DNA of 23,374 nucleotides. Source: a virus. The DNA lies in IMG/VR virus record IMGVR_UViG_3300032156_000002, positions 73,023 to 96,396 of that record; one strand, given 5' to 3'. Both the position numbers and the translations under genes were made by a program. A model generated the notes under the pieces. The model did no database searches, was not told where the DNA came from, and saw only the letters and a list, made by a program, of their open reading frames with translations. Positions 1 to 22,122 of the stretch are shown here, one piece after another. The first letter of the stretch is position 1. Every line of letters starts with the position of its first letter.

Positions 1-1
1 A

Positions 2-3000
2 AATTCCCGCGAGTACAAGATTACGCGGTTTGGGTTACACAAATTCGCGAGCGGCGACAAGACGTACACCGATATGTGGACGGCGGTTCTCGCAATCGGG
101 AAGGGCTTGGCGAAGTACCCCGAGGCCATGTCGTGGAGAACGGCCCCGGACACGGTGCTCGTGTTCTTCCCGCTCGCGTGGGAAGTCCTCGCCATGCCAA
201 TAGACGTGGCCGCCGGACTTGACCCCGAGTACGCGACCGTCCTTGACATGCCCGAGATTATCGAGCGCGGCGGCCCCGGCTCAGGCCACTTCGGCCACGA
301 GGGCAGGCCCGGAGAGGTGGGCGGGAGTCTACCCGACGAGGGCGGCCTCTTGACCGGGGAACCGGGCGATGCGCGGGTCAACACGTTTTTCACTAAACGC
401 GGACTCGGAATTGATGTAACACCCGAAGATGCCTTGGGCCTTTGGGAGACATGCAAGGAACTGAACGGCGGCGTGCGCACCGGTCTCACGGACAGCGTTC
501 TTCCTCCCGGCTCTCCACAGATTGAAACGGACGAGGTCTGGATTGCGCCCAACGGCGAGGCCGTTCGGGTTATCTTGGGCGGGCACGAGGGTGTCGCTCA
601 CGAGGCTCTTGAGCACTACTACGCAAAGGATGTCTCGAAATTCCTGCCCTTCCTTGACTTGAACATCAAGCAGACCGACCCGGTGTTACACGAAGGGAGA
701 GAGGTCGGTCGGCTCACATTCGTCGCGCCGAACGAAGAGGAGACGCTTGTCGCGACGGCATACATCGACCGGGATGGGAAGTTCCGGTGGAAGATAAAGG
801 AGTCGAGTTTTGACTTCGCACCAGAGCCTCTGCCGCCCACGGCGAGCAAGGAGGAGATTGTCCTCGCCAATCCGAAACACACGGTCTATGGCATCGTGGG
901 CGGCGTCGGCGCAGAGGAGTTGTTTATGGCGCACGGTTTCCTGCGCGTCAGCCGCGGCGGACAACCATCGGGGCCTATGTCAACGGCCGGTTTCTCGTGG
1001 GACGCCACCTTGACTCCAACTGAGCCGCAGAGGCGAGCGGTTATGCGCGTTGCCAAGGCCATAGAGGACGCTGGCGGCGGATACATGTGGGAGACTGCGA
1101 ATAGCAACAACAAGCATCCCGCCTCTGAGGGTATCTATTCGGCCCTTTTGGGGAACGCAAGCCGCGCTCGGAACGAACTACGGACTGCCCTGACGGGACA
1201 GCCGCACTTTCCCGTGGTCGAGCGGTCCGCGTGGCCGGACTGGGCACTGGCGCTCGTGATGCGCGGCGGGCCGGGAAGCGGTCACTTTGGGCATGAGGGT
1301 AGGCCGGGCGAGGTCGGCGGGAGTGCGCCGAGCGGAGGATTATCAATCGGAGCACCGGGGACCTACGGCACCGAGCAGGTCGTGCGAGGGCGATGGAATC
1401 CAAATGCCAACCTTGCCTACCACTGGACCGACTCCGAGGGACTGGAAGGAATCCTCGACAAGACAGAATGGGAGGCGGGAAGTCTCACGGTCAATCCCGG
1501 CTATCGGTATGTCGGGCATGGTCCACGTCAAGACCGTTTCGCGCTCGTGTTCGACCGCTCCATGATACGGGAGGACAAGGCAGAGGCGACGGTGCCATGG
1601 AGTGAGTGGGAGATACTCTCGCGCGATGATGTTCCCTTGATGCCGGGAATCAACGAACCGCAGGCGTTTCTTGGCTTCGGCGTTCGCACCCAGCGCGATG
1701 CTGATATTCTGCGCCGCAAGATTATCAAGTTCTATGATGACCCCGACTGGGGCACGATGTGGCCAATCCACATCGTGCCCGACGTGACACCGGTCCATCT
1801 GCGCTCAATGGTCGAGCGCGGCGGCCCCGGCTCGGGCCACTTTGGGCACGAAGGCCGCCCCGGTCAGGTCGGGGGAAGCATGCCCGGCGACGGATTATCA
1901 ACCGGCGAGCCGGGCGAGGACGTGAGCGCACGAGAGGCCAAGGTCCGCAAAAAACTCGACGCCATCATCAAGCGGACGAACGCGAAGATTGAGCGCATCA
2001 AGACCGCCGACAAGGCCGGTGCCATGCGCGTATTCTTCCGAGGGTTGGACAAAGAGCGCAACCGCTACGCGGGTGGCACGCACGTCAAGGGCTGGTGGAA
2101 ACTTGGCCGCGAGGCGATGGTCAAAATCATCTTCCAGTATCGCGCCTTTGCGGAGGCGAAGTACGAGAAGATGCCCCAAGTGGCCGACCTTTACGCGGGC
2201 GACACTTACAACAAAGACCGCATCAAGTACCTGCGCGAGCGGCTGGACCTCCTTGCCAGAATCGAGTATGACCTGCGGCACGTAGAGTCTGACCCGGACA
2301 TGATTGTAGAGAATGCGAGGAGTATCCAAACAGCCTTCAATGCCATGCGCGAGGTTGGCTATTTCCTTGCGCTTGATGCCGAACTCGCGCTTGACAACGA
2401 GGGGCACAAGTTCAACTGGCGCGACTCGGACCCAACGGTCGAAATGACCGTAGACGGCGAAACTATCAAGGTCGAACCGGCGGTGTACGCACGTGCCGCC
2501 GATATACGAATCGACTGGGACCCCAAGCCTGCGGAGACGCAGATTCTCGAGGCGCGGGCCGATGGATTCGCCGAGGCAATCCATACACGCATCGAGGCGA
2601 TGAGACCATTCACGGATGGACTTGTCAACGCCGCGAACGATGCGGTTCCGGGCCGTGTCCTCGTGGGTCGGGACAACGCCAGAGATGCGCTGAACGCCGT
2701 CGCCGCCGAGATTTACAACGCCGAGGCTCGCCCGAAGGTGTCCGCCATCCAGAGCCGCATCGGCATGGGCGAGTCCGTGCCGCAGGCTGACTTGGACTAC
2801 GTTGCCGACTGGACGGTCAAGTTCAAGGCATACGATTCGGCCATGAGAGACCTTGACCTTGCGCGGCGCGACGTGAGGACATGGCAGTTAGGCGGTCTAT
2901 CGTCGGAGTTGTGGAAAGACTACGGCGGACCCGAGGACACCATCCAACTCACGAGAGGCGTTGACACCGGCGACAGAATGATTGGCGGGGTTGAGGAAAG

Positions 3001-3562
3001 GAACATGAGGCTGGCGGATAAATTCCTGTCAGCCGTTGTCTCGCCCGATGTCGAACCCGGCATGGAGGTCAAGGTCTATCGGTTGGTCGAATCGGACCCG
3101 GAGCCGGACCGCGGCTTCTATCGGTCGAGCGACAGCGGCGACCTGCTCTCCGGCATCTACTTGCCCGACGGTGCGGATGCGACCACCTTCGTTCACGAGT
3201 ACGGGCATCATCTTGAGCAACACAACGCGGGATTGCACGAAGCGACCCGCGCATTCTTGTTTGAGCGAAGCAAGGGTTTGCCCATCGAGCACTATCCTGT
3301 GCCACCCTTCCGGCCGGACGAACAAGGCTACCTCACAGCCTTCCACCTGATACCCGACGACTACGCGGGCAAGGTCTACGGACCAGATGCCCTGCACTCG
3401 GGCGCGACCGAGGTCCTGTCACAGGGCCTTCACCGATTGAAAGAGGACCCGGTTTACTTCTCCGAGGGCGACCGCGACTGGTTTGACTTCACGGTGCTCT
3501 CCCTGACCGGCGACCTAGAGAGGGACATGCAATGGCTACGTCAACACATCCCTACGCCCTGA
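2..3562 (+). CDS. Modular phage head-region protein with three GGPGSGHFGH linkers and a C-terminal HEYGH metallopeptidase (5' partial)
   Basis: The frame is open to the left edge, and the ATG at 74 has no convincing ribosome site, so the gene starts outside the window. Numbering from that Met, identical Gly/Pro/His linkers at residues 65-85, 397-417 and 582-602 divide the protein. Module A (86-396) is unassigned. Module B (418-581) begins with a YHWTDSEGLEGIL stretch, then SLTVNPGYR and ALVFDRSMI, which faintly recall the ADP-ribosyltransferase-like toxin domains of phage MuF-type proteins (inference, weak). Module C (603-1162) is a long, charged, largely helical region ending in HEYGHHLE (H1041, E1042, H1045), a zinc-metallopeptidase HExxH motif; E1113 in TEVLSQGL is a candidate third ligand. 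The next gene starts inside its 3' end. Likely a virion-packaged or head-processed multidomain protein. Confident about the coding and the HExxH, unsure of function. Confidence 0.75.
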   Translation, partial: NSREYKITRFGLHKFASGDKTYTDMWTAVLAIGKGLAKYPEAMSWRTAPDTVLVFFPLAWEVLAMPIDVAAGLDPEYATVLDMPEIIERGGPGSGHFGHEGRPGEVGGSLPDEGGLLTGEPGDARVNTFFTKRGLGIDVTPEDALGLWETCKELNGGVRTGLTDSVLPPGSPQIETDEVWIAPNGEAVRVILGGHEGVAHEALEHYYAKDVSKFLPFLDLNIKQTDPVLHEGREVGRLTFVAPNEEETLVATAYIDRDGKFRWKIKESSFDFAPEPLPPTASKEEIVLANPKHTVYGIVGGVGAEELFMAHGFLRVSRGGQPSGPMSTAGFSWDATLTPTEPQRRAVMRVAKAIEDAGGGYMWETANSNNKHPASEGIYSALLGNASRARNELRTALTGQPHFPVVERSAWPDWALALVMRGGPGSGHFGHEGRPGEVGGSAPSGGLSIGAPGTYGTEQVVRGRWNPNANLAYHWTDSEGLEGILDKTEWEAGSLTVNPGYRYVGHGPRQDRFALVFDRSMIREDKAEATVPWSEWEILSRDDVPLMPGINEPQAFLGFGVRTQRDADILRRKIIKFYDDPDWGTMWPIHIVPDVTPVHLRSMVERGGPGSGHFGHEGRPGQVGGSMPGDGLSTGEPGEDVSAREAKVRKKLDAIIKRTNAKIERIKTADKAGAMRVFFRGLDKERNRYAGGTHVKGWWKLGREAMVKIIFQYRAFAEAKYEKMPQVADLYAGDTYNKDRIKYLRERLDLLARIEYDLRHVESDPDMIVENARSIQTAFNAMREVGYFLALDAELALDNEGHKFNWRDSDPTVEMTVDGETIKVEPAVYARAADIRIDWDPKPAETQILEARADGFAEAIHTRIEAMRPFTDGLVNAANDAVPGRVLVGRDNARDALNAVAAEIYNAEARPKVSAIQSRIGMGESVPQADLDYVADWTVKFKAYDSAMRDLDLARRDVRTWQLGGLSSELWKDYGGPEDTIQLTRGVDTGDRMIGGVEERNMRLADKFLSAVVSPDVEPGMEVKVYRLVESDPEPDRGFYRSSDSGDLLSGIYLPDGADATTFVHEYGHHLEQHNAGLHEATRAFLFERSKGLPIEHYPVPPFRPDEQGYLTAFHLIPDDYAGKVYGPDALHSGATEVLSQGLHRLKEDPVYFSEGDRDWFDFTVLSLTGDLERDMQWLRQHIPTP
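266..328 (+). repeat. GGPGSGHFGH linker copy 1
   Basis: Encodes RGGPGSGHFGHEGRPG then EVGGS. Copy 2 has the same 21 residues, yet 12 of the 21 codons differ synonymously, so selection acts on the peptide. It is followed shortly by GGLLTGEPG, a second conserved tail seen after most copies. Confidence 0.9.
1262..1324 (+). repeat. GGPGSGHFGH linker copy 2
   Basis: Same 21-residue peptide as copy 1 in different codons (for example AGC instead of TCA for serine). It separates modules A and B of the long first gene and is followed by GGLSIGAPG. Confidence 0.9.
1817..1879 (+). repeat. GGPGSGHFGH linker copy 3
   Basis: Differs from copies 1 and 2 by a single residue (Q for E in the EVGGS end). It separates modules B and C and is followed by DGLSTGEPGED. 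Confidence 0.9.
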
Positions 3563-3965: not shown

Positions 3966-4898
3966 GTGCCCGGCTCTGTGACCGTGCCTAGTACGCTCAA
4001 AGGACACGCCGCCGACATCTGGCGAGCCGCATTCCTTGCGTCTTGCGAGGGCACGTGCAAAGGGCGCGAGGACAAAGACTCCTGCGCCGCGTCCATTGCG
4101 TGGACCGCGGTGAAGGAAAATTACAAGAAGGGCGACTCGGGGGAATGGGTCGCCAAAGGCGGGCCTATGACGGAGCAGACGAAATTGATTGAACGCAAGG
4201 AATTCTCGGCGGGCCAGCGGGGCAAGTTGGCTGAGGAAAACAAGGCCATGCCCGGTGGCGGCTATCCCATCGAGAGCGAGCAGGACCTTCGCAATGCCAT
4301 TCATGCGATTGGCCGTGCGAAGAATCGCGCCATGACTATCCGGCACATCATGCGTCGCGCCAAGGCCCTCGGGTTGATGAAACTCATCCCGGCGGGTTGG
4401 GTGTCCGAGGTGAAGTCGCTGGCGCAGATTATCCGCGCCGTTCCCGGCGACATCCTCGTTCGCCGCATCGCGCGCGAGCACGAGGCGACCTACGATGTCG
4501 AGTTGACTCAGCGTGGCCTCGCCAACACCGAGGCCGTTCGTCCTGCCTGCTTTGATAGCGAAGTCTGGCGTGCTCTGCCCGCGAGCGAACGCACCTACGG
4601 CGCGCTTCTGCGTCGGCGCTTCATCTCGCGGCAGTACCACGAAGCCGTGGACCAGATGCTTGAGAACGGGTGGGAAGCCCGGAAGAATCCGAATCGCCCG
4701 GAGGAGTTCATCTTCCGTGGCTACGTGAATACGCCCGACGGCGCGGTGTTCGTGCGCGACATTCTTGTGCGCCGCCGCGGTACGGGCACATGGTACCCGC
4801 GCGAGGTGAGCCGCGGGGCCAGCGCCTCGACCTCCATCATGCTCGACCCGCAGGAAATTCGGTATCGCGGCCCCGAAATCGAAATCCCGGTTCACTGA
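3966..4898 (+). CDS. ChaB-like plus DUF6582-like phage protein
   Basis: 310 residues. Start GTG with GGAGG at 3956-3960, five bases upstream. The N-terminus (about 1-65: LKGHAADIWRAAFLAS, later AASIAWTAVKENYKKGDSGEW) matches the ChaB-like domain found in phage head regions. Residues about 75-138 (FSAGQRGKLAEENKAMPGG, then DLRNAIHAIGRAKN and RHIMRRAKALGLMKLIPAGW) match the DUF6582-type module common in phage proteins. The C-terminal 170 residues are unassigned. Both small helical domains are often found next to capsid protease genes, but their roles are not established. No membrane segment is visible. The next gene begins a few bases after its stop. Confidence 0.7.
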   Translation: MPGSVTVPSTLKGHAADIWRAAFLASCEGTCKGREDKDSCAASIAWTAVKENYKKGDSGEWVAKGGPMTEQTKLIERKEFSAGQRGKLAEENKAMPGGGYPIESEQDLRNAIHAIGRAKNRAMTIRHIMRRAKALGLMKLIPAGWVSEVKSLAQIIRAVPGDILVRRIAREHEATYDVELTQRGLANTEAVRPACFDSEVWRALPASERTYGALLRRRFISRQYHEAVDQMLENGWEARKNPNRPEEFIFRGYVNTPDGAVFVRDILVRRRGTGTWYPREVSRGASASTSIMLDPQEIRYRGPEIEIPVH

Positions 4899-4905
4899 GG
4901 TGCGT

Positions 4906-5457
4906 ATGACCCCAACAGAGTCGGACCTCGTTCGTGGCGCGCGAGAAATTCTTGACATCTCCGCTTTGATTCTCCGCGGCGGGGCGGGGAGTGGGCACTT
5001 CGCTCACAAGGGGGTCCCCGGCCAAAGGGGCGGCAGTGCGCCGGGGCCGGGAGGCGGCACGGTTTCGGAGGCAGGCGGAACGCACAAGGGGGTCCCCGGC
5101 CAACGGGGCGGCAGTGCGCCCGGACCAATGGGACTCGGAACGAGTTGGCAAGGGGGAAAGTCATTCGCCCACACCCTGACGAACAAGTCATACGACTCTT
5201 GGGTGACGATGCTCTCCAAAAAGCCGCTCGCGAAGTTGCGGGCTTGGCAGGATGTTGTCTCTGGGCAGATGGAACTTCTGCGAAAGAACGGTGACAAGTC
5301 TCCGGGCGAGATTGCTTCGATAGAGCAGATGGTCTGGGAACTCGCCCTCACCGACGCGGTGGCACGCAAGGCATTTGCGAACGAGTTTCCGGCAGGCAGT
5401 TTCGGGCTTCCGGCGTGGCTGAAAGAATGGCGAGCGAAGGCGGAGGGGGCGCAGTGA
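4906..5457 (+). CDS. Linker-bearing phage protein A (GGAGSGHFAHKG type)
   Basis: 183 residues from the ATG at 4906, chosen over the GTG at 4900 because GAGG lies five bases before it. The N-terminus (DLVRGAREILDISALILRGG) closely parallels that of the next gene, so the two are partial paralogues. Residues 24-44 are a variant of the Gly/Pro/His linker; a second, truncated linker copy follows after 26 residues because of a DNA-level duplication. The rest (YDSWVTMLSKKPLAKLRAWQ onward) is helical and ends in WLKEWRAKAEGAQ. No catalytic motif is visible. Its TGA overlaps the next gene's GTG. Function unknown; it probably belongs to the same linker-tagged set as the long first gene. Confidence 0.7.
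   Translation: MTPTESDLVRGAREILDISALILRGGAGSGHFAHKGVPGQRGGSAPGPGGGTVSEAGGTHKGVPGQRGGSAPGPMGLGTSWQGGKSFAHTLTNKSYDSWVTMLSKKPLAKLRAWQDVVSGQMELLRKNGDKSPGEIASIEQMVWELALTDAVARKAFANEFPAGSFGLPAWLKEWRAKAEGAQ
4975..5037 (+). repeat. GGPGSGHFGH linker copy 4 (variant)
   Basis: Encodes RGGAGSGHFAHKGVPG then QRGGS, a diverged form of the linker in the long first gene, followed by APG. Confidence 0.85.
5005..5040 (+). repeat. 36-bp direct repeat, left unit
   Basis: Encodes HKGVPGQRGGSA. It is repeated at 5083-5118 with one mismatch (A/C in the Gln-Arg region), offset 78 bases and in frame. The near identity contrasts with the synonymous divergence between other linkers and points to a recent in-frame duplication. 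Confidence 0.85.
5083..5118 (+). repeat. 36-bp direct repeat, right unit (partial linker copy)
   Basis: Second unit of the in-frame duplication. It carries only the C-terminal half of the linker (HKGVPGQRGGSA) and lacks the GGAGSGHF part. Confidence 0.85.
5442..5446 (+). promoter_or_regulatory. Ribosome binding site deciding the 5454 start
   Basis: GGAGG seven bases before GTG 5454, inside the 3' end of the preceding gene. It supports the short start and translational coupling. Confidence 0.6.
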
Positions 5458-6446
5458 CGGACAGACTTCTCCGCGGCGCGCTTGAAATCCTTGACCTGTC
5501 GGCCGTCATTTTTCGCGGCGGACCCGGCAGTGGCCATTTTGGCCACAAGGGTCGCCCCGGCGAGGTCGGGGGAAGTGCGCCGGGCATGGGCGGATTGTCA
5601 ACCGGCGAGTCGGGCAAGACATATCCGGTGAAGTGGACCCCGACGGGGCGTGGCGTGGGCGCTGGCGTTTCTCACGAGAGTGATGACGGGAGGTTTGTCA
5701 TTCACGGAACCGGCGCTGGGCACGGAATGAATTATGTGTTGCAGGACAAGAACGCCAGCAAACCGGATGAGGCGGCGGGTCGCTTTGCCACATTGGCCGA
5801 GGCCAAGGACGCCGCCCAGCGCATCGCCAACGAGACAGAGGGATACACGACCGGCGAAGCAACTGGCAAGTATCCGGCCAACTTCAATCCCGAGACCGGC
5901 CTCTACAAGAACAAGGTCATTTACGTCCGCAAGAGCAACAGCCACAAGTGGTTTTGGGTGAACATCGCCAACGACCAAGCGGACGTGGACCGATTGATGC
6001 CCGGCATTCTGCGTGACTACAAGACCGCAGAGGGCAGGCAGTGGCAAATCAAGGTCGTGGATGTCGAGTGGGAAGGCGGCGATGTCTCCAAGATTCCGTA
6101 CTCGCTGACCGGCCCGGAACTCGAACGGTTCGCCAGCAAGGGATTGTCAACCGGAGAACCCGCCGGAGACTACGGTCGCCGTGAGGTCGTGAAGGTCAAC
6201 CTCGGGACGCTGAATGGAAAGCGCGTCTACATCGAACATCCCCTGCGCACCTCGACGGAGGAAGGGAACTGGCCGAATGACACGCTTCACGTCGGTGGCA
6301 GTAGCATACTACTGGATACCCAGCGCATGACGGAGTCCCTGTATCGCCTGATGCCAGCGGCCTACATGGCGGGCAATGGAAAGCCAGCCAGCGAGTGGCG
6401 CTGGTTCATTGACGAGGCGCGCCGCCGGGGATTGCTCCGTGGCTGA
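5454..6446 (+). CDS. Linker-bearing phage protein B
   Basis: 330 residues from GTG 5454, which overlaps the upstream TGA (GTGA) and has GGAGG at 5442-5446; an upstream in-frame GTG at 5415 lies deep inside the previous gene and is less likely. The N-terminus (DRLLRGALEILDLSAVIFRGG) is paralogous to that of the gene before. Residues 21-41 are a canonical linker with the GLSTGESGK tail. A second, orphan tail GLSTGEPAGD sits at residue 230 without the linker. Between them is a domain with DDGRFVIHGTGAGHG and GRFATLAEAKDAAQRIA, a small beta-rich layout; the C-terminal part ends in EWRWFIDEARRRGLLRG. No enzyme motif recognised. Likely part of the linker-tagged set. Confidence 0.7.
   Translation: MTDRLLRGALEILDLSAVIFRGGPGSGHFGHKGRPGEVGGSAPGMGGLSTGESGKTYPVKWTPTGRGVGAGVSHESDDGRFVIHGTGAGHGMNYVLQDKNASKPDEAAGRFATLAEAKDAAQRIANETEGYTTGEATGKYPANFNPETGLYKNKVIYVRKSNSHKWFWVNIANDQADVDRLMPGILRDYKTAEGRQWQIKVVDVEWEGGDVSKIPYSLTGPELERFASKGLSTGEPAGDYGRREVVKVNLGTLNGKRVYIEHPLRTSTEEGNWPNDTLHVGGSSILLDTQRMTESLYRLMPAAYMAGNGKPASEWRWFIDEARRRGLLRG
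5514..5576 (+). repeat. GGPGSGHFGH linker copy 5
   Basis: Encodes RGGPGSGHFGHKGRPG then EVGGS, one residue (K for E) different from copies 1 and 2, and is followed by APGMGGLSTGE. Confidence 0.9.
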
Positions 6447-8187
6447 GAAGGAAACCTTTGGCGGCGCGAACTACAACGCCGAAACGGGCGACAGCGGGCG
6501 CAAGTGCGACGAGTGTGTGTACTTCGCCGCGGACCGCTGTGACAAGTGGAAACGCAAGGTGGCACCGGACGGCATTTGCAATGCCTACTCGCCACGACCG
6601 GAGGGCAGACTATCCATGAGCGAAGCGATTATCAACCCCGAGTCACCCGAGGCCATGCCGATGCGGTCCACGGACCTCTACATCACGCGCGTGTCTCTTG
6701 ACCCGCAGACACGCCAGCGCCGCTGGTATGCGACAGCGAGCGGGACGAAGAAAGACCTGTACGGTGACAACATGACCGTCATGCTGTTCAAGGACTTTAT
6801 CAAGCGCATCGAGCGCGGTGACGAAGCCCCCGAGCCGTTCAAGTCGCGCTCGTGGAACGGCGGCCTGCCGTACTTGTCGGTGGCTCACTACCTTGACCTT
6901 GACGGGTTTGGAGTGGCGGGCAAGACTGACCAAGTTTGGGCCGACGGCGACATTTTCAAGGCCAAAGGCACGTTCTCGGATAGCACCGTGGGACGAGCCG
7001 CCTACGAGGCGGTCAAGCGCGACATCGAGAGCGGAAAGCCGCCGAGCGAGAAAGTCAGGATTTCCATTGCGTTCATTGACTGGGGCCACGGGCACGAGGG
7101 CGCAGGTGGCGTCTTTGCCCGAAAGAGCCTTCTGGACAGGTGCCCGCACTGCGATAGCGGGCTGGGGAAGAAATCCTACCGGGAAGGGCAGATAGTGCAT
7201 TTGGCCTTGACCCGGAGGCCAGCCTACCCCGATACTGAAATCCAACTAGAGGAGCGAGCCATGACTACCCGACTGGAAGATGCCTCAAGCATTGTGGGCG
7301 ACGAACTCGCCAAGGACCTCGAAAAGCGAAGTGGCGCTCTCACAGAGCGGGCCGAGCAGGCTACTCCGGGGGTTGTCGTGGTCCGCGACGATTCTAGCGC
7401 CGCCGCCGAGAAGGACAAGGCCGAGGCCAAGCCCGAGGTCGAAACCTCCGGCTCCGCGACCGTGGAGGAAATGTCCATGGCCAAGGACGGATTCGGCACC
7501 ACGCTCGACGAGGCCGAAGCCTTCCTCGCGCGCTCGAAGGAAAGTCCGATTCTAGACGGCTGGGGAATTCTCGCCGCCGTTATCAAGAACGCATCCGCCC
7601 GGCCCGCGGCCGAGCGCGAGTCGCTCGTCGAAAAGGCGTTGGTTGAATTCCGCGACCGGCTCGATGTGGTCAACCTCGACACGCTGACAGCCGTGCGCGC
7701 ATTCCTCGACAAGGCACCCGCGCCCGTTGCGCCGTCTGCGCCCGGCGCGCCCGTTGTTCCCGCGCCCGCACCTCACGTGCTCGATGAGGGAATGGAGAAT
7801 CTCAGGGCGGTCTATGACGAGGCCCTTGGCACCGCCAATGCCACCGCGCAGGAGAAGTTGGCCGCAATTCAGCCTGCGATGAATTCGCTGGCCGAGGTCA
7901 TCATGCGCAGTGTCGAACCGCAGGCTCCCGCCGCCGAGGCGGCCTCCGCCGGTGAAACGGTGGAACTCACGAAAGCCGTACAAGCACTCACGGGGGTTGT
8001 CGCTACCCTCGTTGGTCGAGTTGATGGAATCGAAAAGCGGAGTGTGACGACACCGCGCGCCCCCGAGGCTCCGGCCCGGCGCGGCATTCGCATGGTGCCA
8101 GCCTTACCCGCGTCCGTGACTCGTTCCGCGACCGGCAAATTGTCAATCCGTGACATTGCCCGCAGGAGCGTGGGACTCACTGAATAA
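6439..8187 (+). CDS. HiPIP-like / prohead protease / scaffold fusion protein
   Basis: 582 residues from GTG 6439, which overlaps the upstream stop. Residues 23-47 hold C-x2-C-x7-C-x12-C with the GIC..Y ending typical of HiPIP-like modules near phage capsid proteases. Residues about 70-270 look like an HK97-type prohead serine protease: candidate catalytic H150 (LSVAHYLDL) and S209 (VRISIAFID), and a closing IVHLALTRRPAYPDTEI strand resembling the EVSLVTxPAxP end of that family. A CPHC pair is inserted between these elements. The remainder is Ala/Glu/Pro-rich with helical stretches, as expected of a scaffold fused to the protease, and lies directly before the capsid gene. It should cleave itself and the capsid or other head proteins during maturation. 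An internal start producing free scaffold is possible but not shown. Confidence 0.75.
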   Translation: MAEKETFGGANYNAETGDSGRKCDECVYFAADRCDKWKRKVAPDGICNAYSPRPEGRLSMSEAIINPESPEAMPMRSTDLYITRVSLDPQTRQRRWYATASGTKKDLYGDNMTVMLFKDFIKRIERGDEAPEPFKSRSWNGGLPYLSVAHYLDLDGFGVAGKTDQVWADGDIFKAKGTFSDSTVGRAAYEAVKRDIESGKPPSEKVRISIAFIDWGHGHEGAGGVFARKSLLDRCPHCDSGLGKKSYREGQIVHLALTRRPAYPDTEIQLEERAMTTRLEDASSIVGDELAKDLEKRSGALTERAEQATPGVVVVRDDSSAAAEKDKAEAKPEVETSGSATVEEMSMAKDGFGTTLDEAEAFLARSKESPILDGWGILAAVIKNASARPAAERESLVEKALVEFRDRLDVVNLDTLTAVRAFLDKAPAPVAPSAPGAPVVPAPAPHVLDEGMENLRAVYDEALGTANATAQEKLAAIQPAMNSLAEVIMRSVEPQAPAAEAASAGETVELTKAVQALTGVVATLVGRVDGIEKRSVTTPRAPEAPARRGIRMVPALPASVTRSATGKLSIRDIARRSVGLTE

Positions 8188-8258: not shown

Positions 8259-9440
8259 ATGACTGAGACCATTGCCCCGGCGCTTGCCGCGGGAGAAAAG
8301 GTAATGAACTTGGGCGAGGGCGAGGCGGCATTCGTGTCGCGCGCCAACGACCCCGTGATGTCGCCCGTGCCCTATGCACGACCGAGCGACTTCGCCGCGC
8401 AGTACCCGACTCCGCTTGACCCGACCGAAATCATCGCCATGTGCGAGGAACTCTCGGTCTGGCAGGCGCTCCCCGAGGAAACCACGGCGCTCTACCAGCA
8501 CACGTGGCGCGAGTTGAACGCTCTGGCCTTCGCGTCCGGGTCATCGTACATCTCGTTCGCGGACGGGAACTGCCCTGAGGAATACGCGCACGACGGGTCA
8601 AACACGACCATCACCCTCAAGAACATCGGCGCAAAAAAGAACCTCAGCGTGTCCGACATCATGCACTCCGCCGCCGTGGCCGCGGCCAATTGGAACGGCA
8701 TCAATCGGCTGGTAGCCCCAATGGCGTCGAGCGAGGGAATGCCCGGTGGTTCGAGCGAGGGGTCCTTCCGGCAGGAATACGTGGCCGACCTGAAGGAAAA
8801 GGAAATCCGGCTGGCCATGACTCTCGTCCTCAATGGATGGGACCGCCTGCTCGTCGCGGGCAATGCCGGAAACAACGCCCTTGAGTTCAGCGGCATCGAA
8901 ACTCTCGTGGCGACCAACTGCGCGAACTACATGGCGGACACCACCTCGGGGTCCTTCAGCGCGCAGGCGTTCGACCGGTTCCTTGCCCGCTCGTGCGCGA
9001 AGCCGACGGTCATCTTCGGGCATCCGCAGGCCATTCAGGAAATGATGATGGCCTACTTCGCCCTCGGCTTCAACGGTTCGCAGGTCGTGAACTTCAGTAC
9101 CGGCGACCGCATCACCCCCGGATTCAACTTCGGCGGGTTCGTGAACACGGGCGTCGGGCGCTTGGGTGTCGTGAGTGACAACAACTTCACCCGTGTCCCC
9201 GCGGGAGCCATCTTCCGCTCGGACCTGTTCGCCCTCCGCATGAATCACAACGGCGTGCCGCTGGTGTTCAAGATTACGCAGATTCCACTCGCGTTGCAGG
9301 ACTTGACCCCCGGATGCACCGCCATCGCCTTCGAAGTGTGGGCAAAGACGGCGCTCATCGTGAAGCACTGTTGCGCTCACAGCCGCTACCGTGGCTTCTT
9401 CACGGGCACCATCACCACGACCTGCCCGGTCATCGGGTAA
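8259..9440 (+). CDS. Major capsid protein (HK97-type fold)
   Basis: 393 residues starting MTETIAPALAAGEKVMNLG after a strong ribosome site. The order protease/scaffold then capsid, the length, and features such as RQEYVADLKEKEIRLAMTLV, GNNALEFSGIETL, PTVIFGHPQAIQEMM and the basic/aromatic C-terminal domain fit a major capsid protein. It forms the icosahedral shell; the N-terminal segment may be removed by the upstream protease, though no cleavage site can be fixed by eye. The C-terminal domain is unusually rich in Cys for a capsid protein (HCCAHSR and TCPVIG), which might allow inter-subunit disulfides or metal binding (inference). A hairpin terminator follows. Confidence 0.8.
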   Translation: MTETIAPALAAGEKVMNLGEGEAAFVSRANDPVMSPVPYARPSDFAAQYPTPLDPTEIIAMCEELSVWQALPEETTALYQHTWRELNALAFASGSSYISFADGNCPEEYAHDGSNTTITLKNIGAKKNLSVSDIMHSAAVAAANWNGINRLVAPMASSEGMPGGSSEGSFRQEYVADLKEKEIRLAMTLVLNGWDRLLVAGNAGNNALEFSGIETLVATNCANYMADTTSGSFSAQAFDRFLARSCAKPTVIFGHPQAIQEMMMAYFALGFNGSQVVNFSTGDRITPGFNFGGFVNTGVGRLGVVSDNNFTRVPAGAIFRSDLFALRMNHNGVPLVFKITQIPLALQDLTPGCTAIAFEVWAKTALIVKHCCAHSRYRGFFTGTITTTCPVIG

Positions 9441-9932: not shown

Positions 9933-10619
9933 ATGCCATCTAAAAAGGCAACGACCAAGAGCAAGGCCGAAGAAAAGAGCGCGAAAGCGACCGTCGTCGG
10001 AGACGCCTATCTCCTGCGCGAGAACATGAACAAAGAGACCATGACGACGGCTCTCATGCAGATGAACGACGAAGAACTGAGAGCGATTGCCGTGGCCGAG
10101 GGATTCGGGTCGCAGAGTTTGAAGAAAGATGAATTCGTGGCGGAAATCGTCTCAAAGTGGCTCTCTAGTTCGACGCCATCGCGCGCCACCCCGCGGCCAG
10201 CACCCGCGAAGCCTGCGAGCAAGGCGAGGCCTGCGCGAGAGCCGAAGGCCAAATCAGGCGTGAGCGCCGTGGCGGTAGCGAGGGGCGAGGGTCCGGCCGC
10301 CGTTGTGGGCAATGCCTATCTCCTGCGCGAGAACATGAGCCGCGACGACATGGCCGACCTCCTCGATAAGATGTCGCGCGAGGAACTTGAGGCCGTTGCG
10401 GTCGCGGAGGGATTTGTCCAAGACGACGCGACAAAAGAGGACCTCGTGGAGGCGATTCTCAATCGCTGGGCGGCGATTCCGTCAGTGACCGTGAACAGAG
10501 GCGGCGTAGTCGGAGACGTGCGGCCCGGCTATGCTCGGGTCTATCCCGAGCCTCCGGCCAATCCCAACACGCCGAGGTCTGCGCGTGTTGGACGCATCTT
10601 TGGCGAGACGGGGAAATAG
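9933..10619 (+). CDS. Protein with two tandem 56-residue helical modules
   Basis: 228 residues from ATG 9933, two bases after the previous stop. A Lys/Ala-rich N-terminus leads into module 1 (residues 21-76). A Pro/Ala/Lys-rich linker (SRATPRPAPAKPASKARPA) leads to module 2 (124-179), followed by a GVVGDVRPGYARVYPEPP tail. By hand alignment the modules are gapless and half identical (28 of 56), sharing AYLLRENM, EELxAxAVAEGF and a terminal W. The pattern of short helices with a Lys-rich turn resembles SAP/HeH/Rho_N-like helix-extension-helix folds that bind nucleic acid (inference). Basic and flexible, it may be a packaged or nucleic-acid-associated head protein. No enzyme motif is visible. 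Confidence 0.7.
   Translation: MPSKKATTKSKAEEKSAKATVVGDAYLLRENMNKETMTTALMQMNDEELRAIAVAEGFGSQSLKKDEFVAEIVSKWLSSSTPSRATPRPAPAKPASKARPAREPKAKSGVSAVAVARGEGPAAVVGNAYLLRENMSRDDMADLLDKMSREELEAVAVAEGFVQDDATKEDLVEAILNRWAAIPSVTVNRGGVVGDVRPGYARVYPEPPANPNTPRSARVGRIFGETGK
9993..10160 (+). repeat. Tandem module 1 of the 9933 gene
   Basis: Encodes residues 21-76 (VVGDAYLLRENM to EIVSKW). It aligns without gaps to 10302-10469. Confidence 0.85.
10302..10469 (+). repeat. Tandem module 2 of the 9933 gene
   Basis: Encodes residues 124-179 (VVGNAYLLRENM to AILNRW). About half of its residues match module 1. Confidence 0.85.
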
Positions 10620-10622
10620 GCC

Positions 10623-11576
10623 ATGACCTATCCGCGTCAGGAGTTTCTCAACTTCCAGCCGGACGAGACGGACAGGTGGAGTGCGGTCGAGCCGGTCCTG
10701 CGGTTCGACGACCTCGCGCCGCGCGACGACAGCCTGCCCATAACGCTCTCCGTTATGATTGCGGCGAACGACTACCGCAAGGCACAGATACTTCGCACCC
10801 TTGAGTGCTTGGCCCGCCAGAAGTTCCGAGACATCGAAGTTCTTGTGGCGCAGATTGGCGGCAATCAGGACCTCGGGGAGGCGTGCGCGAGATTCTTGCC
10901 GTACCTGCGAGTGCGCTTTTTCAAACTCGAACGCGAGGGTTTCGCCGCCGACCCGAGCCGCGGCTTCCGGGCGATGATACCCGAGGCGCAAGGCGACTAC
11001 ATCGCGGCCATGCAGGCCGAGATTATGCTGACCGAGGAGGCGTGCGGTGTGCTGGTACGCTCGATGCGCGACCCGATGCTGGGGTCCACTTTCCATAGTT
11101 GCCTTGACGCTTCGCCGCTTGAGGACTGGTTGAGCAAAGAGAAATTCATCGTCCTGCGCATCGGCTTCCTCGATGGACAATGCCAACAGGCGCTCGACCA
11201 GACGGACTGGCACAGTCACGTCCGAGAAATCGAGCAGATATACTCCTACAACCGGCACGGAGAAGGATTGTCAAACCGCGGCAACACCTTCTGGCGGCCC
11301 GCTATCCATTTCCCGTGGTGGTTCGTCGGTTGCGCGAAGCGCGAAGCGGGCATCTGGAAAGATATGCCCGAGATGCTTGGGCACGCGATGATTGACTTCT
11401 ACTTGATGAACTACCGCATCTCCTACGGCTACGTGGACATTCTGCCGCCGGGGTTGTACGGCTACCATCAGTACCACTTTCGCACGGCTGTCGGCATGAA
11501 GGACGAGGAGCCGACCATGCGCCTTGCGTTACAGGAAAGGGCGCGAAGGGAGAGGGGAGGCGAGCAGGTCGAATGA
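10623..11576 (+). CDS. Glycosyltransferase, GT-A (family 2-like), divergent
   Basis: 317 residues, first gene of the sugar cassette, starting three bases after the previous stop. After a 40-residue lead, LSVMIAANDYRKAQILRTLE and KFRDIEVLVAQIGG form the nucleotide-binding start of a GT-A fold, followed by GDYIAAMQAEIMLTEEA where a DxD motif is normally found. That motif is not canonical here (AEIML), so metal dependence or activity is uncertain. The C-terminal region is rich in aromatic residues (FPWWFVG, YGYHQYHF). No membrane segment. Probably transfers a sugar from a nucleotide sugar; donor and acceptor unknown. Its stop overlaps the next start (ATGA). Confidence 0.6.
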   Translation: MTYPRQEFLNFQPDETDRWSAVEPVLRFDDLAPRDDSLPITLSVMIAANDYRKAQILRTLECLARQKFRDIEVLVAQIGGNQDLGEACARFLPYLRVRFFKLEREGFAADPSRGFRAMIPEAQGDYIAAMQAEIMLTEEACGVLVRSMRDPMLGSTFHSCLDASPLEDWLSKEKFIVLRIGFLDGQCQQALDQTDWHSHVREIEQIYSYNRHGEGLSNRGNTFWRPAIHFPWWFVGCAKREAGIWKDMPEMLGHAMIDFYLMNYRISYGYVDILPPGLYGYHQYHFRTAVGMKDEEPTMRLALQERARRERGGEQVE

Positions 11577-12409
11577 GGATTGCCATTGCTGGTTTCCGGG
11601 GGAGGCTTGGGTCGTGGCTGTTCGAATCTGGCGGACCCGACATCTTTGCGCTGGACGTGGACTGTGCGGACCCGCATGCGGTTGGTGAGTGCATCCAAGA
11701 GTCCAAGCCCGATGTGATTATCAATTGCGTTTCGTGGACCAAGGTGAACGAGGCGGAGGACCCGGCCAACCGGGAGGCCGTGATTCGCGCGAACGTTCGT
11801 GCACCCGGCGTCCTGCGGCGCGCCTTCGGCGGCTACCTCATCCAACTCTCCTCGGGTTTCGTGTTCCCCGGCACGCCCCTGCCGCGCGTCATCGAGTACA
11901 ACGAGAACGCCAAGACCAACCCCGTCAACTTCTACGGATTTTCAAAACTGGGGGGCGAGGCGGCGGCCCGGCTAGGCAATGGGCCGACACTGGCGGTCCG
12001 AACGCTCGACCTGTTCGGGCCGGTGGCCATTCCCGGCAAAGAGGATTTCGTGCAGGGCGTGGTGCGCATCCTGCGGTCCGGTCAACCATTTCCCACGCGC
12101 CCGTTCTACATGCGCCAGCCGACGTACATCCCTGAACTTGCGCGGGTATTGCTCGGCATTGCCAGATGTCAGAATCCAATCACGGGGATTCTTCACCTTG
12201 CCGGGTGGCCCGCCACGGATGCGCGCCACTGGGCCGAGGCCGTGGCCGATGCCTATGGTCTGCCCAAGGATGGCATCTGCGGAGGTTATGAGCCGAAGGT
12301 GCCCCGCCCGTTCGGCGCGGTCCTGAACGTCAGCAAGGCGAAGCACCTCGGAATCAATATGATGTTCCCGACGGACGCTCTCAATATCATGGCGCGAGGT
12401 CAACAGTGA
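11573..12409 (+). CDS. RmlD-like NAD(P)-dependent 4-keto-sugar reductase
   Basis: 278 residues, a normal length for dTDP-4-dehydrorhamnose reductases. The Rossmann motif GFRGRLGSWL is at the N-terminus, the catalytic serine region QLSSGFVFPG holds S93/S94, and the YxxxK motif is Y121-G-F-S-K125. PDVIINCVSWTKVNEAEDP and RANVRAPG are typical of the RmlD branch of extended SDRs. It should reduce a 4-keto nucleotide sugar at C4. Because the only complete early pathway in the window is CDP-linked, the likely substrate is a CDP-4-keto-6-deoxy or 3,6-dideoxy hexose after C5 epimerisation (inference); a dTDP-sugar from the host is the alternative. Coupled to both neighbours by ATGA/GTGA overlaps. Confidence 0.75.
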   Translation: MRIAIAGFRGRLGSWLFESGGPDIFALDVDCADPHAVGECIQESKPDVIINCVSWTKVNEAEDPANREAVIRANVRAPGVLRRAFGGYLIQLSSGFVFPGTPLPRVIEYNENAKTNPVNFYGFSKLGGEAAARLGNGPTLAVRTLDLFGPVAIPGKEDFVQGVVRILRSGQPFPTRPFYMRQPTYIPELARVLLGIARCQNPITGILHLAGWPATDARHWAEAVADAYGLPKDGICGGYEPKVPRPFGAVLNVSKAKHLGINMMFPTDALNIMARGQQ

Positions 12410-13110
12410 AGTTCAGTGTCGTGCTCCTTACCTTCAACAGCCCCAGCCGCTTCGAGAAGCGCATGGACGAACTGGCCTACTGGACGGCTAACCGCGACGC
12501 GGAGATTGTGCCCGTGCTCAACGGACCCGTGGACCGCGAGTACAGCCTTTTGCTTGCGCTGGCCATCTCGCGGAGCGCACACGAGCCGGGCGCGCCCTTC
12601 ATCCGACCCATCGCCATTCCGATAAACCACGGCTTCGCCGGAGGCATGAACATCGGCGCGCGCTCGACCGCGGGCGAGATTATCATTCTCCTCAGCGATG
12701 ATGTGCGCATTGCCGGTGACTTCCTTACCCCAATCGAGGCGACCCTGAGGCGCGGCTCGCTGTCCATCGTCTCCAAGACCATTGTCAACTTTCCGGGCGG
12801 ATGGAATCAGTTTGGCGATGTTGTTGTGGCCTACCCGGACGGGTCACTGGTGGCCATGCGCAAGTCAATATGGCAGGCACTCGGCGGTTTCGACGAGCAA
12901 TTCACACCCGCGGGTTTCGAGGACGTGGACCTCGGGTATCGGGCCGCGCAACTCGGCTTCCCGCTGGTTGCACTTCCCAACCTGCCGGTGGACCATAGCG
13001 CGCCGGGCCAGTCTGCGCCCTACAACAAAGAACGGTTCGACCGATGTGTTCGGATGAAGGCGTTGTTCGCCGCGAAGTACGGATTAGAGAACGTGCCTGC
13101 GGTTCCGTAG
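12406..13110 (+). CDS. Family 2 glycosyltransferase
   Basis: 234 residues from GTG 12406 (GTGA overlap with the previous stop). FSVVLLTFNSPSRFEKRM opens the GT-A fold, NHGFAGGMNIGARSTAGE precedes the metal site LLSDDV (D98, D99), and GFEDVDLGYRAAQLG (E172, D173) gives the acceptor-side acidic motif typical of rhamnosyltransferase-like GT2 enzymes. It is compact, soluble and apparently complete. It should transfer one sugar, possibly the deoxyhexose made by the cassette; specificity cannot be read from sequence. Confidence 0.8.
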   Translation: MKFSVVLLTFNSPSRFEKRMDELAYWTANRDAEIVPVLNGPVDREYSLLLALAISRSAHEPGAPFIRPIAIPINHGFAGGMNIGARSTAGEIIILLSDDVRIAGDFLTPIEATLRRGSLSIVSKTIVNFPGGWNQFGDVVVAYPDGSLVAMRKSIWQALGGFDEQFTPAGFEDVDLGYRAAQLGFPLVALPNLPVDHSAPGQSAPYNKERFDRCVRMKALFAAKYGLENVPAVP

Positions 13111-13119
13111 GAGAGGGTC

Positions 13120-14052
13120 ATGCCTGCCAAGCGAAAGATGCGCATTGCGTTCGCGATGATATATTATCCGGTAGCGATGGGGCGTTACTTCCTTGAGGCC
13201 CTGCGCCGCCGGAGAGATGTCGAGTTGTGGACGTTTGGCCCGTACACGGCGCAATGGATTCCGTGGGACGGCGGAATGAACCTGCCCACGCGCTACGTGT
13301 TCCGGCCAGACATGCCGTTATCAATGCCGCCATTCATCTCCTACGGCTGGGCCGAGAACTCGAAGCCGTGGGAGCCGGACCTGTGGCTGGAAGCAAATGC
13401 GGCTATGCAAACCGAAGGCCGACCCAAAGGCAAGTACGCGGTGGTAGGAACCGACCCGCACGTTCTCGACTACACGCCCCAACGTCGGGCGGCGGACTTC
13501 TTCTTTGGGATGCAGGGGCCGTACCTCAAGCCGGGCGACATCTGGCTTCCCTATGGCTACGACCCCCTTTGGCATTCGTTCTCGCCGGTTCCCGCGGCGC
13601 TCCGCACGAACGATGCGGCACTCATCGGCCTCCACTACGAAAAACGCACGCAACTTGTGGACCGACTGCGGGCACTCGGACTGACCGTGCACTATTCCAT
13701 CGGCCCGGCCTATGAGGACGCGCGCGCCATCTACCATGACACGCGGGTTGGCCTCGACTGGGCCAGCCTGCAAGACCTGAATGCGCGCGCCTTCGAACTT
13801 ATGGCCCTCGGGTGCGCGCCGCTTCTTTCGCGCGTGCCGGACCTTGGGACACTGTTCGTGGAGGGCCGCGATTACGAGGGATTCGATACTCTTGATGAAG
13901 CCGTGGCCAAGGCGGTTGCTCTTGCGCGCGACCCCGCCCGCGTGGACGAACTTGCGCGCAATGCTCGGCGCGCGGTCGAGCCGCACACATGGGACGCTCG
14001 CGTGCGCGACATCCTGCACAAGACTGGGCTATTGCCCGAGGCGGAGTGGTGA
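13120..14052 (+). CDS. CgeB-like glycosyltransferase (GT-B)
   Basis: 310 residues from ATG 13120 after a GGAGAGGG ribosome site. The C-terminal half, VGLDWASLQDLNARAFELMA followed by LGCAPLLSRVPDLGTLF, EGRDYEGFDTLDEAVAKA and NARRAVEPHTWDARVRDIL, matches the Glyco_trans_1_2 type domain of CgeB-like transferases. The N-terminal half is the less conserved acceptor domain. No membrane segment is visible. The function is transfer of an unknown sugar onto the cassette's glycan. Its TGA overlaps the next gene's GTG. Confidence 0.75.
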   Translation: MPAKRKMRIAFAMIYYPVAMGRYFLEALRRRRDVELWTFGPYTAQWIPWDGGMNLPTRYVFRPDMPLSMPPFISYGWAENSKPWEPDLWLEANAAMQTEGRPKGKYAVVGTDPHVLDYTPQRRAADFFFGMQGPYLKPGDIWLPYGYDPLWHSFSPVPAALRTNDAALIGLHYEKRTQLVDRLRALGLTVHYSIGPAYEDARAIYHDTRVGLDWASLQDLNARAFELMALGCAPLLSRVPDLGTLFVEGRDYEGFDTLDEAVAKAVALARDPARVDELARNARRAVEPHTWDARVRDILHKTGLLPEAEW

Positions 14053-14471
14053 CACAACTTCCATCCGAAGGTTACAGAGTCAATCGGGTGAAACATCGCG
14101 GCGACCCCAAGAGTGCTGTTCTTGAATCTGGCGACGCGGTGACGAAGCAAGACCGTGTTTTCTTCCGCATTCCCATCGCGATGGGTCGCTTCAGCGCGCT
14201 GGACTGGGTATCCATCAAGTGCGCAGAGTACCACGGGGAACATTTCGTCTACCTTGACCCCCTCTACGAGAACGACAAGGACACGGGCAGGGGGCATTGG
14301 TTCGCGGCATGCACCTGTGGAAGTCCGGCGGTGTTGATTGGCCCGACGGATGCGCAGATTGAGGACGCGGGCGTAGAGGAGCAACTCTTGGTGTGCTTCC
14401 TGTATCACAAGACTCTGACCGAAACGGGCTTTGGCCGCCACGCAACGACGGGAGAAAGGCCGTGGGCATGA
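14049..14471 (+). CDS. Unknown small protein inside the sugar cassette
   Basis: 140 residues from GTG 14049 (GTGA overlap). It contains DWVSIKCAEYHGEHFVYLDP, GRGHWFAACTCGSPAVLIGP and a C-terminal LVCFLYHKTLTETGFGRH. The CTCG pair with other Cys/His residues might bind a metal, but no known motif is complete. Coupled on both sides to a glycosyltransferase and a methyltransferase. I do not recognise it; being in the middle of an otherwise pure carbohydrate operon argues for an accessory or acceptor-related role, or a small virion protein. Confidence 0.6.
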   Translation: MTQLPSEGYRVNRVKHRGDPKSAVLESGDAVTKQDRVFFRIPIAMGRFSALDWVSIKCAEYHGEHFVYLDPLYENDKDTGRGHWFAACTCGSPAVLIGPTDAQIEDAGVEEQLLVCFLYHKTLTETGFGRHATTGERPWA

Positions 14472-15154
14472 AAGACTACGCGCGATTCGACAAGTACCTC
14501 GACGACCTCTCGCAGGATGTCCGGCCCCAGCCGGTGGACGATGGGCATAAATACTGGGCGACCATCGGGTTCCGCACGATGCTCGCGCAGATTCCAGAGC
14601 ACGAGCGGGGCCAAAGGCGTTGCCTCGATGTCGGATGCGGCGAGGGCTTCATGGAGCCGGTCATTGCCGCCGAGGGCTACCAGTGGACCGGCGCAACTAT
14701 TGGGCAGGACGGCATAGATGCCATCGCGCGGGGGATGAATGTCCAGTACGCCGACATGACTTTCCTGCCGGTTGAGGACCACTACTTTGACCTCATTTTT
14801 GCACGGCACGTTCTTGAGCACAGTCCGTTCCCCGTCATCACCTTGATGGAGTGGAGACGCATCTGCAAGGGCTACCTCATTCTCATTGTTCCCTGCCCCG
14901 ACTACTGGGAGTGGTACGGCCGCAATCACTACGCGATGGCGAACGTCGTCCAGTTGCGTTGGTGGCTCCGCCGGTCTGGCTGGCACGTGATGCACGAGTC
15001 GACTCTCAGCACAACCGACGACGAATTCCTGCTCATGTGGCGGCAGACGCCGCACCCGCAGATGGGCAACCCCGGCCCGGCGGCCCGCTTCCCCGAGGAC
15101 AAGACAGTTGAGTACCGCTTGCTCTGCAAGGCGAGCCTCGAGGTCGTCGAATGA
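14468..15154 (+). CDS. Class I SAM-dependent methyltransferase
   Basis: 228 residues from ATG 14468 (ATGA overlap); GTG 14462 is an alternative with a better-spaced GGAG. Motif I is LDVGCGEGF (residues 53-61), then ADMTFLPVEDHYFDLIFARH and VLEHSPFP, typical of methyltransferase type 11/FkbM-neighbour enzymes in glycan operons. It probably methylates a sugar hydroxyl or carboxyl in the glycan; substrate unknown. Coupled to rfbF by another overlap. Confidence 0.75.
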   Translation: MKDYARFDKYLDDLSQDVRPQPVDDGHKYWATIGFRTMLAQIPEHERGQRRCLDVGCGEGFMEPVIAAEGYQWTGATIGQDGIDAIARGMNVQYADMTFLPVEDHYFDLIFARHVLEHSPFPVITLMEWRRICKGYLILIVPCPDYWEWYGRNHYAMANVVQLRWWLRRSGWHVMHESTLSTTDDEFLLMWRQTPHPQMGNPGPAARFPEDKTVEYRLLCKASLEVVE

Positions 15155-19796: not shown

Positions 19797-19820
19797 CGCA
19801 CAAGGCTGAGGAGAAGCCAA

Positions 19821-22114: not shown

Positions 22115-22122
22115 GGTCTGAC

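Follow-up and report, generated by a model that had tools for sequence, protein, structure and literature searches.

A recurrent glycine-rich linker in a phage head-gene cluster resembles a cleavage site of the phage's own prohead protease

The stretch of viral DNA analyzed here (the window; 23,374 nucleotides, G000:73023-96396, G000 being the 96,396-base record IMGVR_UViG_3300032156_000002) carries two adjacent genes, genes 1 and 2, each of which opens with a leader of about 20 residues followed by a glycine-rich linker. Our results indicate that this linker is most probably a modular site cut by the phage's own prohead protease, at which leaders would be removed and polyproteins split in the prohead, the pieces then probably being packaged and ejected. 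Cleavage at x/GG (the slash marks the predicted cut and x is residue -1, or P1), freeing the leaders and separating the domains, is strongly suggested by the sequences, and we infer the actual cleavage, the packaging via leader or precursor, the ejection and the task of each body.

The first-pass annotation had described two neighboring genes with a common leader and linker on unlike bodies, and this description holds: the leaders are identical at 12 of 18 residues (36 of 54 nucleotides, 7 of 18 third positions), both genes carry the 20-residue linker (Table 1), and the bodies do not align. Homology between the bodies, which would have made the genes simple paralogues, was searched for and not found, neither BLASTP (E<=100) nor phmmer (0.01) pairing the two. 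Upstream of their last four residues the two leaders reach a BLOSUM62 score of 45 over 15 positions, which is unmatched among 29,883 between-phage pairs of a de-duplicated set (maximum 36). The paralogue of the gene 1 body lies in an open reading frame (ORF) of 607 residues (G000:68562-70385; phmmer 6.9e-21). Neither body matched a family in Pfam, PHROG or NCBIfam, so that no domain was recognized, and neither gene matched a MuF domain in these collections at E<=0.1 or any entry in PADLOC. Pattern searches of viral contigs returned no match for gene 2 and 11 for the gene 1 body, none of them a relative, and the structure predicted for gene 2 from its sequence alone was not of usable quality (predicted local distance difference test, pLDDT, 46.6). 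Among annotated phages, the 53-residue leader plus linker, the capsid protein, gene 1 and gene 2 were all unmatched, in a search whose low-complexity filter may hide linkers.

The linker has the 20-residue consensus x/GGxGSG[N/H]FGHxGRPGxxGGS. Strict matches in the 96-kb record number 10, all forward, against none for a reversed-pattern control, and a looser reading places 16 linkers in the head-gene cluster of this phage: six in an ORF of 1939 residues, five in one of 1683-1720 residues, two in one of 638 residues, one in the 607-residue ORF, and one each in genes 1 and 2. A terminase ORF and a portal/head-morphogenesis ORF are located upstream of these linker-bearing ORFs. The four long ORFs fall into 16 pieces of 185-362 residues each, except one of 580. 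The one that reaches into the window (as 74-3562) is an incomplete gene there, its frame being open to the left edge and two further linkers lying upstream; its three linkers within the window, which the first-pass annotation missed, have no leader of the type found in genes 1 and 2. Fifteen of the 16 linkers have R at P1, and 14 have V or I at P3. Many linkers of this phage are followed by a second short element, GLSTGEPG, which also occurs on its own between domains (window 6141; G000:61979, 69750), where it looks like what may be the remains of a linker.

The same linker is widespread among phages. A scan of IMG/VR with a stricter pattern found it in at least 118 stretches of viral contigs, with as many as ten copies in one polypeptide (L106), and 84,980 bacterial and archaeal genomes gave 13 matches, of which 11 lie in contigs whose titles name Clostridia or groups within it; the linker contigs include one of Desulfosporosinus sp. 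PR (L129), and Desulfosporosinus and Lachnospiraceae, which appear in the titles, are members of Clostridia. Neither GGxGSG nor the linker was present in the parts covered of three annotated records that had been reached in other ways, and a 26-residue linker consensus was unmatched in the PDB. De-duplication by similarity reduced 303 linkers to 257 in 102 contigs, of which 53 contigs hold two or more copies (208 of the 257 linkers). When unrelated proteins of one phage were compared, residue -1 agreed at 0.84 versus 0.15 in shuffled data, a level reached by none of 500 shuffles. Agreement was lower at -3 (0.31 vs. 0.11), -4 (0.21 vs. 0.11) and -2 (0.17 vs. 0.09), slightly raised at -5 and -6, within 1.3 standard deviations of the shuffles from -7 to -19, and slightly raised again at -20 (5/500). 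With L and A merged, 45 of the 53 multi-copy contigs are uniform at -1, compared to 4.5 in shuffles (maximum 11), and among all 102 contigs, single-copy ones included, the classes at -1 are D (30), K (25), L/A (21), N (7), R (5) and E (2). As -3 and -4 follow -1 weakly, the pattern is like the P3-x-P1 rules of prohead proteases, described as (L/I)xE for T4 (PMC9026906) and as AxE for SPN3US.

Variant linkers that fail the strict pattern behave in the same way. This set, which was unused in setting the classes, comprised GGxGSG cores with other tails (PQxGDG, WTAENGHVPG, SWxGPxDPRF, PRPG) or with single changes; cores preceded within six residues by two or more G were not counted. The class residue is kept in 4/4 variants of the D class, 7/7 of K, 1/1 of N, 19/23 of L/A and 2/3 of R, and two of the four L/A misses are, by eye, terminase P-loops (GRGSGKS). 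Moreover, variant linkers stand directly behind the protease domain in L191, L200 and L228, as do ordinary linkers in L272 and L277.

The pre-linker residues also recur where the head proteins themselves would be processed. The window contains a putative prohead protease fused to a scaffold-like tail and a major capsid protein (Table 1), and the motif at the leader ends of genes 1 and 2 resembles the capsid and protease-scaffold junctions. The protease is predicted to have the gp21/assemblin fold: an AlphaFold2 (AF2) model of the domain, built with 17 sequences (pLDDT 80.5), retrieved T4 gp21 first (Foldseek E 0.004, probability 0.99) and aligned with it (5jbl) at Z 10.5 and a root-mean-square deviation of 2.9 over 139 residues, herpesvirus proteases following at Z <=6.3. 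H91 and S150, which are invariant in the 17 sequences (among 25 invariant columns), presumably have catalytic roles, and the predicted protease-scaffold junction lies just past the low-confidence end of the model. Protease relatives were obtained from capsid-protein loci, and a query with the protease itself gave 10 pattern matches, none confirmed as a relative.

In the phages of the R class, R or K precedes a conserved xxDP in all 22 capsid rows (18 distinct; 21 relatives and the window) at a variable distance from the start, with V or I at P3 in 21 rows and T in one. Seven of the 10 related records searched lack a linker match but retain this site; these records may be fragments. Behind the protease domain, 17 of 19 rows show hVx[KR]. 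With a profile built from the R-phage linkers, the capsid junction comes out on top among 392 alignment columns (5.35 vs. 3.70 for the next), and so does the protease-scaffold junction among 537, in a near tie with an ALTR column inside the domain (3.77 vs. 3.76). In the L class, 52 of 59 capsid loci were used (seven were omitted as partial or repeated): 51 rows have R-x-[LA] before [SAGTR]P and one has R-x-M, each of the 40 linkers found in the 12 distinct records that bear them has L or A before the cut, the record with the capsid site FRAA/SPL has linkers ending in A, A and A, and the linker profile ranks the capsid junction second of 315 columns. The column tests merged identical ends, used 17, 38, 11, 17 and 11 sequences, and omitted L261, L271 and L272. 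In an E phage with a Gp23 capsid protein (2.4e-64) and a match to the T4-type protease family S77 below the cut-off (16.3 vs. 27 bits), the linkers read [LIF]xE/GG and the capsid protein has one [LI]xE/[GA] site, near its start.

A search for relatives of the D-type capsid protein gave only its own contig, and D phages were therefore reached via family searches. In a set of 38 records, family searches matched Phage_capsid (3), Peptidase_S78_2 (2) and Peptidase_S78 (3). By eye, D stands shortly before the capsid fold in linker-bearing rows and behind the DUF2213 protease in all 12 of 13 rows that show the region, where it may belong to the protease fold; K/G and N/S occur, also by eye, at like places in three phages. 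When capsid N termini of linker-bearing phages (G056, L261, omitted) were matched to linker classes with the own phage left out, 19 of 31 were assigned correctly, compared to a permuted mean of 7.0 and a maximum of 17 in 20,000 permutations. Single loci have further features: L271 (G056) has another linker-like stretch (NPNHSPKNGQF...) behind its DUF2213 domain, perhaps a separate linker family; G026:C1 (L186) shows protease and capsid family matches in one frame of 683 residues; G022:C1 (L187) has a frame of 713 residues with a capsid match only, the protease part being seen by eye; and in L148 (G011) the ORFs at 8515 and 11176 both encode capsid proteins, which belong to one family.

Table 1. 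Features of the linker-bearing genes, the prohead protease and the capsid protein in the window (P1, residue before the predicted cut; slash, predicted cut).
Feature	Window positions	Strand	Details
Polyprotein ORF, 3' part	1-3562	+	G000:71419-76584 from stop to stop; 1683 aa from first ATG; five linkers, three in the window
Polyprotein linker after EIIER	269-328	+	
Polyprotein linker after ALVMR	1265-1324	+	
Polyprotein linker after SMVER	1820-1879	+	
Gene 1	4906-5457	+	Start ATG 4906; stop ends 5457
Gene 1 leader, predicted propeptide	4906-4977	+	Ends ...DLVRGAREILDISALILR; P3-P1 = I-L-R
Gene 1 linker GGAGSGHFAHKGVPGQRGGS	4978-5037	+	Predicted cut: R (codon 4975-4977) / GG
Tandem half-linker HKGVPGQRGGS in gene 1	5083-5115	+	Lacks GGxGSG core; missed by the first-pass annotation
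Gene 1 body	5158-5457	+	Paralogue behind another linker in the same phage; no family match
Gene 2	5454-6446	+	Start GTG 5454; stop ends 6446; 4-base GTGA overlap with gene 1
Gene 2 leader, predicted propeptide	5454-5516	+	Ends ...RLLRGALEILDLSAVIFR; P3-P1 = I-F-R
Gene 2 linker GGPGSGHFGHKGRPGEVGGS	5517-5576	+	Predicted cut: R (codon 5514-5516) / GG
Gene 2 body	5577-6446	+	Lone GLSTGEPA element at ~6141; relatives not found
Prohead protease fused to scaffold-like tail	6376-8187	+	Domain ~6616-7380; predicted junction VVVVR/DDS, P1 codon 7384-7386
Major capsid protein	8259-9440	+	Predicted junction AFVSR/ANDP, P1 R28, codon 8340-8342; PHROG major head protein, E 0.025 (weak)

Several observations weigh against cleavage by the prohead protease. 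One of the 16 linkers of this phage has S at -1, L095, L111 and L045 are mixed at this position, and within-phage agreement extends to inner linker positions (N/H at position 7: 0.84 vs. 0.52), so that part of the signal reflects lineage. Two of the 19 protease-scaffold rows lack the site, the top capsid column of the L profile sits in the body and not at the junction, no junction column stood out in the column test of L-type proteases, and none was found with the D profile in the D capsid and D protease families. In addition, [LIF]xE occurs six times altogether in the E-phage capsid protein, the capsid junctions of the D, K and N classes are picks by eye, and the capsid classifier was wrong in 12 of 31 cases, raw scores alone giving 20 right.

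According to the mechanism we propose, precursors would enter the prohead via a leader, via a fused head domain or as whole precursors. The prohead protease would then cut between the pre-linker residue and GG during head maturation, in this phage behind an R that is mostly accompanied by V or I at P3. For genes 1 and 2, the cut would remove the short shared leader, as gp21 removes the propeptides of T4 capsid-targeting sequences, while the proteins of 1.7 and 1.9 kilo-residues would be cut into domain-sized pieces, each with the 20-residue linker as its new N terminus. The freed pieces would probably be packaged, leave the head together with the DNA and act at an early stage of infection, an ejection step suggested by precedent.

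The first-pass annotation took the leader plus linker for a targeting signal, for example for packaging into the prohead. The link with the prohead is well supported, as the genes lie between the terminase/portal and the protease and capsid genes (PHROG matches), the pre-linker residues match capsid and protease-scaffold junctions, and the family-matching bodies elsewhere are of effector or head type; the element that recurs, however, is the linker, and it resembles a cleavage site rather than a targeting signal. The shared leader does recur on unlike bodies in four other records, but it is a minority feature and most linker proteins lack it. Within phages, 5 of 55 leader pairs with unlike bodies scored at least 25, one from each of five records (this phage, L053, L089, L091 and L105), compared to 22 of 4,969 pairs between records, 20 of which scored at least 30, in a set that was not de-duplicated and from which only pairs with like bodies were dropped by a crude ungapped comparison. 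Those 20 pairs presumably come from related phages with homologous genes. In the de-duplicated data, leader similarity was no higher within phages than between them, a test that was biased because de-duplication had removed similar leaders. The leader was rejected as a general signal and retained as a feature of a minority. Packaging driven by the leader is plausible by analogy, since a shared leader cut at a protease site has the look of the T4 capsid-targeting sequences. In L091 (G032), a T4-like phage, several N-terminal leaders are alike (..IVKDIAS..LFE/GG) and resemble capsid-targeting sequences.

The conservation of the linker extends beyond the cutting site, with positions left free by the reading pattern being nearly constant (S20 in 98%, P14 in 95% and R13 in 91%), some of which were fixed by the fetching pattern; the GRPG within the linker could conceivably also be read as an AT-hook. 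A possible, more tentative reading is that the linker doubles as a protease site and, once cut, as an N-terminal tag on each effector, the cassette being common to phages with unrelated capsids and proteases. Given this conservation, the tag would bind a common partner for holding or ejection, and each phage would re-tune the cassette to its own prohead protease at P1 and P3 alone, its linkers thereby disclosing the specificity of that enzyme.

The near-constant positions far beyond P4-P1 would also suit a docking or packaging tag that is never cut, in which leader plus linker, or the linker alone, binds a scaffold or capsid protein and residue -1 is part of the binding face. Such tags are known, comprising 10 residues in T4 IPIII (PMC9026906) and 30 in P1 DarB (PMC9024508). 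Nonetheless, we regard an uncut tag as unlikely, as it predicts neither the equality of -1 and -3 with the capsid and protease-scaffold junctions, nor the retention of -1 in variant linkers, nor linkers inside polyproteins and behind protease domains.

It has also been proposed that polyvalent proteins are released by metallopeptidase domains embedded in them (Iyer et al., 2017; PMC5512222), and five of the 16 polyprotein pieces of this phage contain HExxH, the motif of zincin-like segments. Cutting of the linkers by such domains is very unlikely and was set aside as a general explanation, considering that HExxH is absent from the visible linker ORFs in 78 of the 102 contigs (partial loci, in which a separate zincin gene is possible) and that the -1 and -3 residues track the capsid and protease-scaffold junctions.

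The modular architecture, with unrelated bodies on either side, could suggest a stretch of DNA kept similar for shuffling gene ends between head proteins, and we consider such a recombination handle highly improbable. Codons at invariant positions agree between copies at 0.370 versus 0.330 expected from codon usage (5,630 codon pairs, 30 contigs), and 178 of 512 Ser5 pairs mix TCN and AGY, so that synonymous sites are saturated and recent copying does not explain the likeness of the linkers; the sole exception is L097, with a codon agreement of 0.79. A plain flexible spacer inherited by lineage, with -1 residues reflecting history without function, would account for the Gly-rich tail and for the several linker positions that agree within phages, yet it deserves hardly any credence: -1 is the most phage-specific position even though the flanking positions mostly stay at background level and codon differences are saturated, and it matches capsid junctions in several capsid families.

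The bodies behind the linkers are diverse. In this phage, ten pieces were scanned against Pfam and two exceeded the cut-off, a 2'-5' RNA ligase/LigT phosphoesterase, which shares one ORF with HExxH segments, and a zeta toxin in another ORF. Among phages, 148 of 227 bodies were sampled (pieces below 90 residues omitted, long ones truncated at 420, and loci L119-L126 excluded as belonging to the same genome), and no Pfam family was matched more than seven times. The best 25 of 30 Pfam families include ADP-ribosyltransferases of several kinds, zeta toxin (5), GNAT, PBECR3, NUDIX, topoisomerase IB, MuF (3) and the proteases XkdF (1) and DUF2213 (1), to which the best 25 of 82 PHROGs add minor-head and head-morphogenesis families. 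This repertoire overlaps that described for polyvalent proteins (Iyer et al., 2017; PMC5512222).

The closest known systems are the T4 capsid-targeting sequences and the polyvalent proteins. As described for the T4 internal proteins (IPI-III, Alt; PMC9026906), a short N-terminal leader precedes unrelated mature parts, a P3-x-P1 site stands at the leader end, and the genes lie in a head cluster with a gp21-like protease next door; genes 1 and 2 likewise share one short leader on unrelated mature parts. Unlike in T4, a conserved 20-residue linker follows the site and recurs up to ten times per polypeptide, and P1 is R here and D, K, N, L/A or E in other phages. Polyvalent proteins resemble the linker proteins in joining several unrelated domains in one late-gene polypeptide, with ART-PolyVal, PBECR, zeta toxin and metallopeptidase-like segments, and an analogy with polyproteins has already been drawn for them (PMC5512222); the ORFs neighboring genes 1 and 2 similarly combine disparate domains in one polypeptide among virion genes. 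The main text of PMC5512222, in contrast, contains neither 'linker' nor 'glycine', and it proposes embedded metallopeptidases, the prohead protease not being mentioned as the cutter in the passages considered.

Other systems share single traits. Ejection proteins of giant phages (phiKZ, SPN3US) are described as head proteins that the prohead protease processes at SxE or AxE, but these accounts give N-terminal propeptides (except for the protease's own C-terminal one), P1 = E and no shared cassette linker. MuF polymorphic toxins (Jamet et al., 2017; PMC5576092) are delivered by phages and joined to head proteins, and in L107 and L110 the linker follows an apparent MuF end, by eye; genes 1 and 2, in contrast, have no MuF match, and the text of PMC5576092 lacks 'linker' and 'cleav'. 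The Dar proteins of phage P1 are large internal proteins, with an N-terminal capsid-targeting signal in DarB, but such a linker was not seen in the available text (PMC9024508). In open-licence PMC papers, GSGHFGH and six linker strings were absent, and neither a common cassette nor non-glutamate P1 classes nor the processing of effector arrays in trans came up in the searches of this collection, which mostly covered listings.

Regarding the other genes of the window, the gene at 3966-4898, between the polyprotein gene and gene 1, encodes a ChaB-like N-terminal domain (PF06150), and some protease ORFs of related phages start, by eye, with a stretch resembling it. Behind the head genes, at about 10600-23000, lies a long run of genes that by eye are related to sugars, with glycosyltransferase-, sugar-nucleotide epimerase/dehydratase- and aminotransferase-like genes.

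Should our interpretation hold, tailed phages would produce their arrays of ejected effectors as genuine polyproteins, with the capsid-maturation protease processing them in trans. In that case the linker would lead to many effector domains that have no known relative, mark the exact mature ends of effectors, and reveal the cutting rule of uncharacterized prohead proteases, adding R, D, K, N and L/A to the E of T4 and the giant phages; the HK97 protease is likewise not known to cut after E. Besides, the linker would represent a natural cut-and-load tag for cargo in phage heads.

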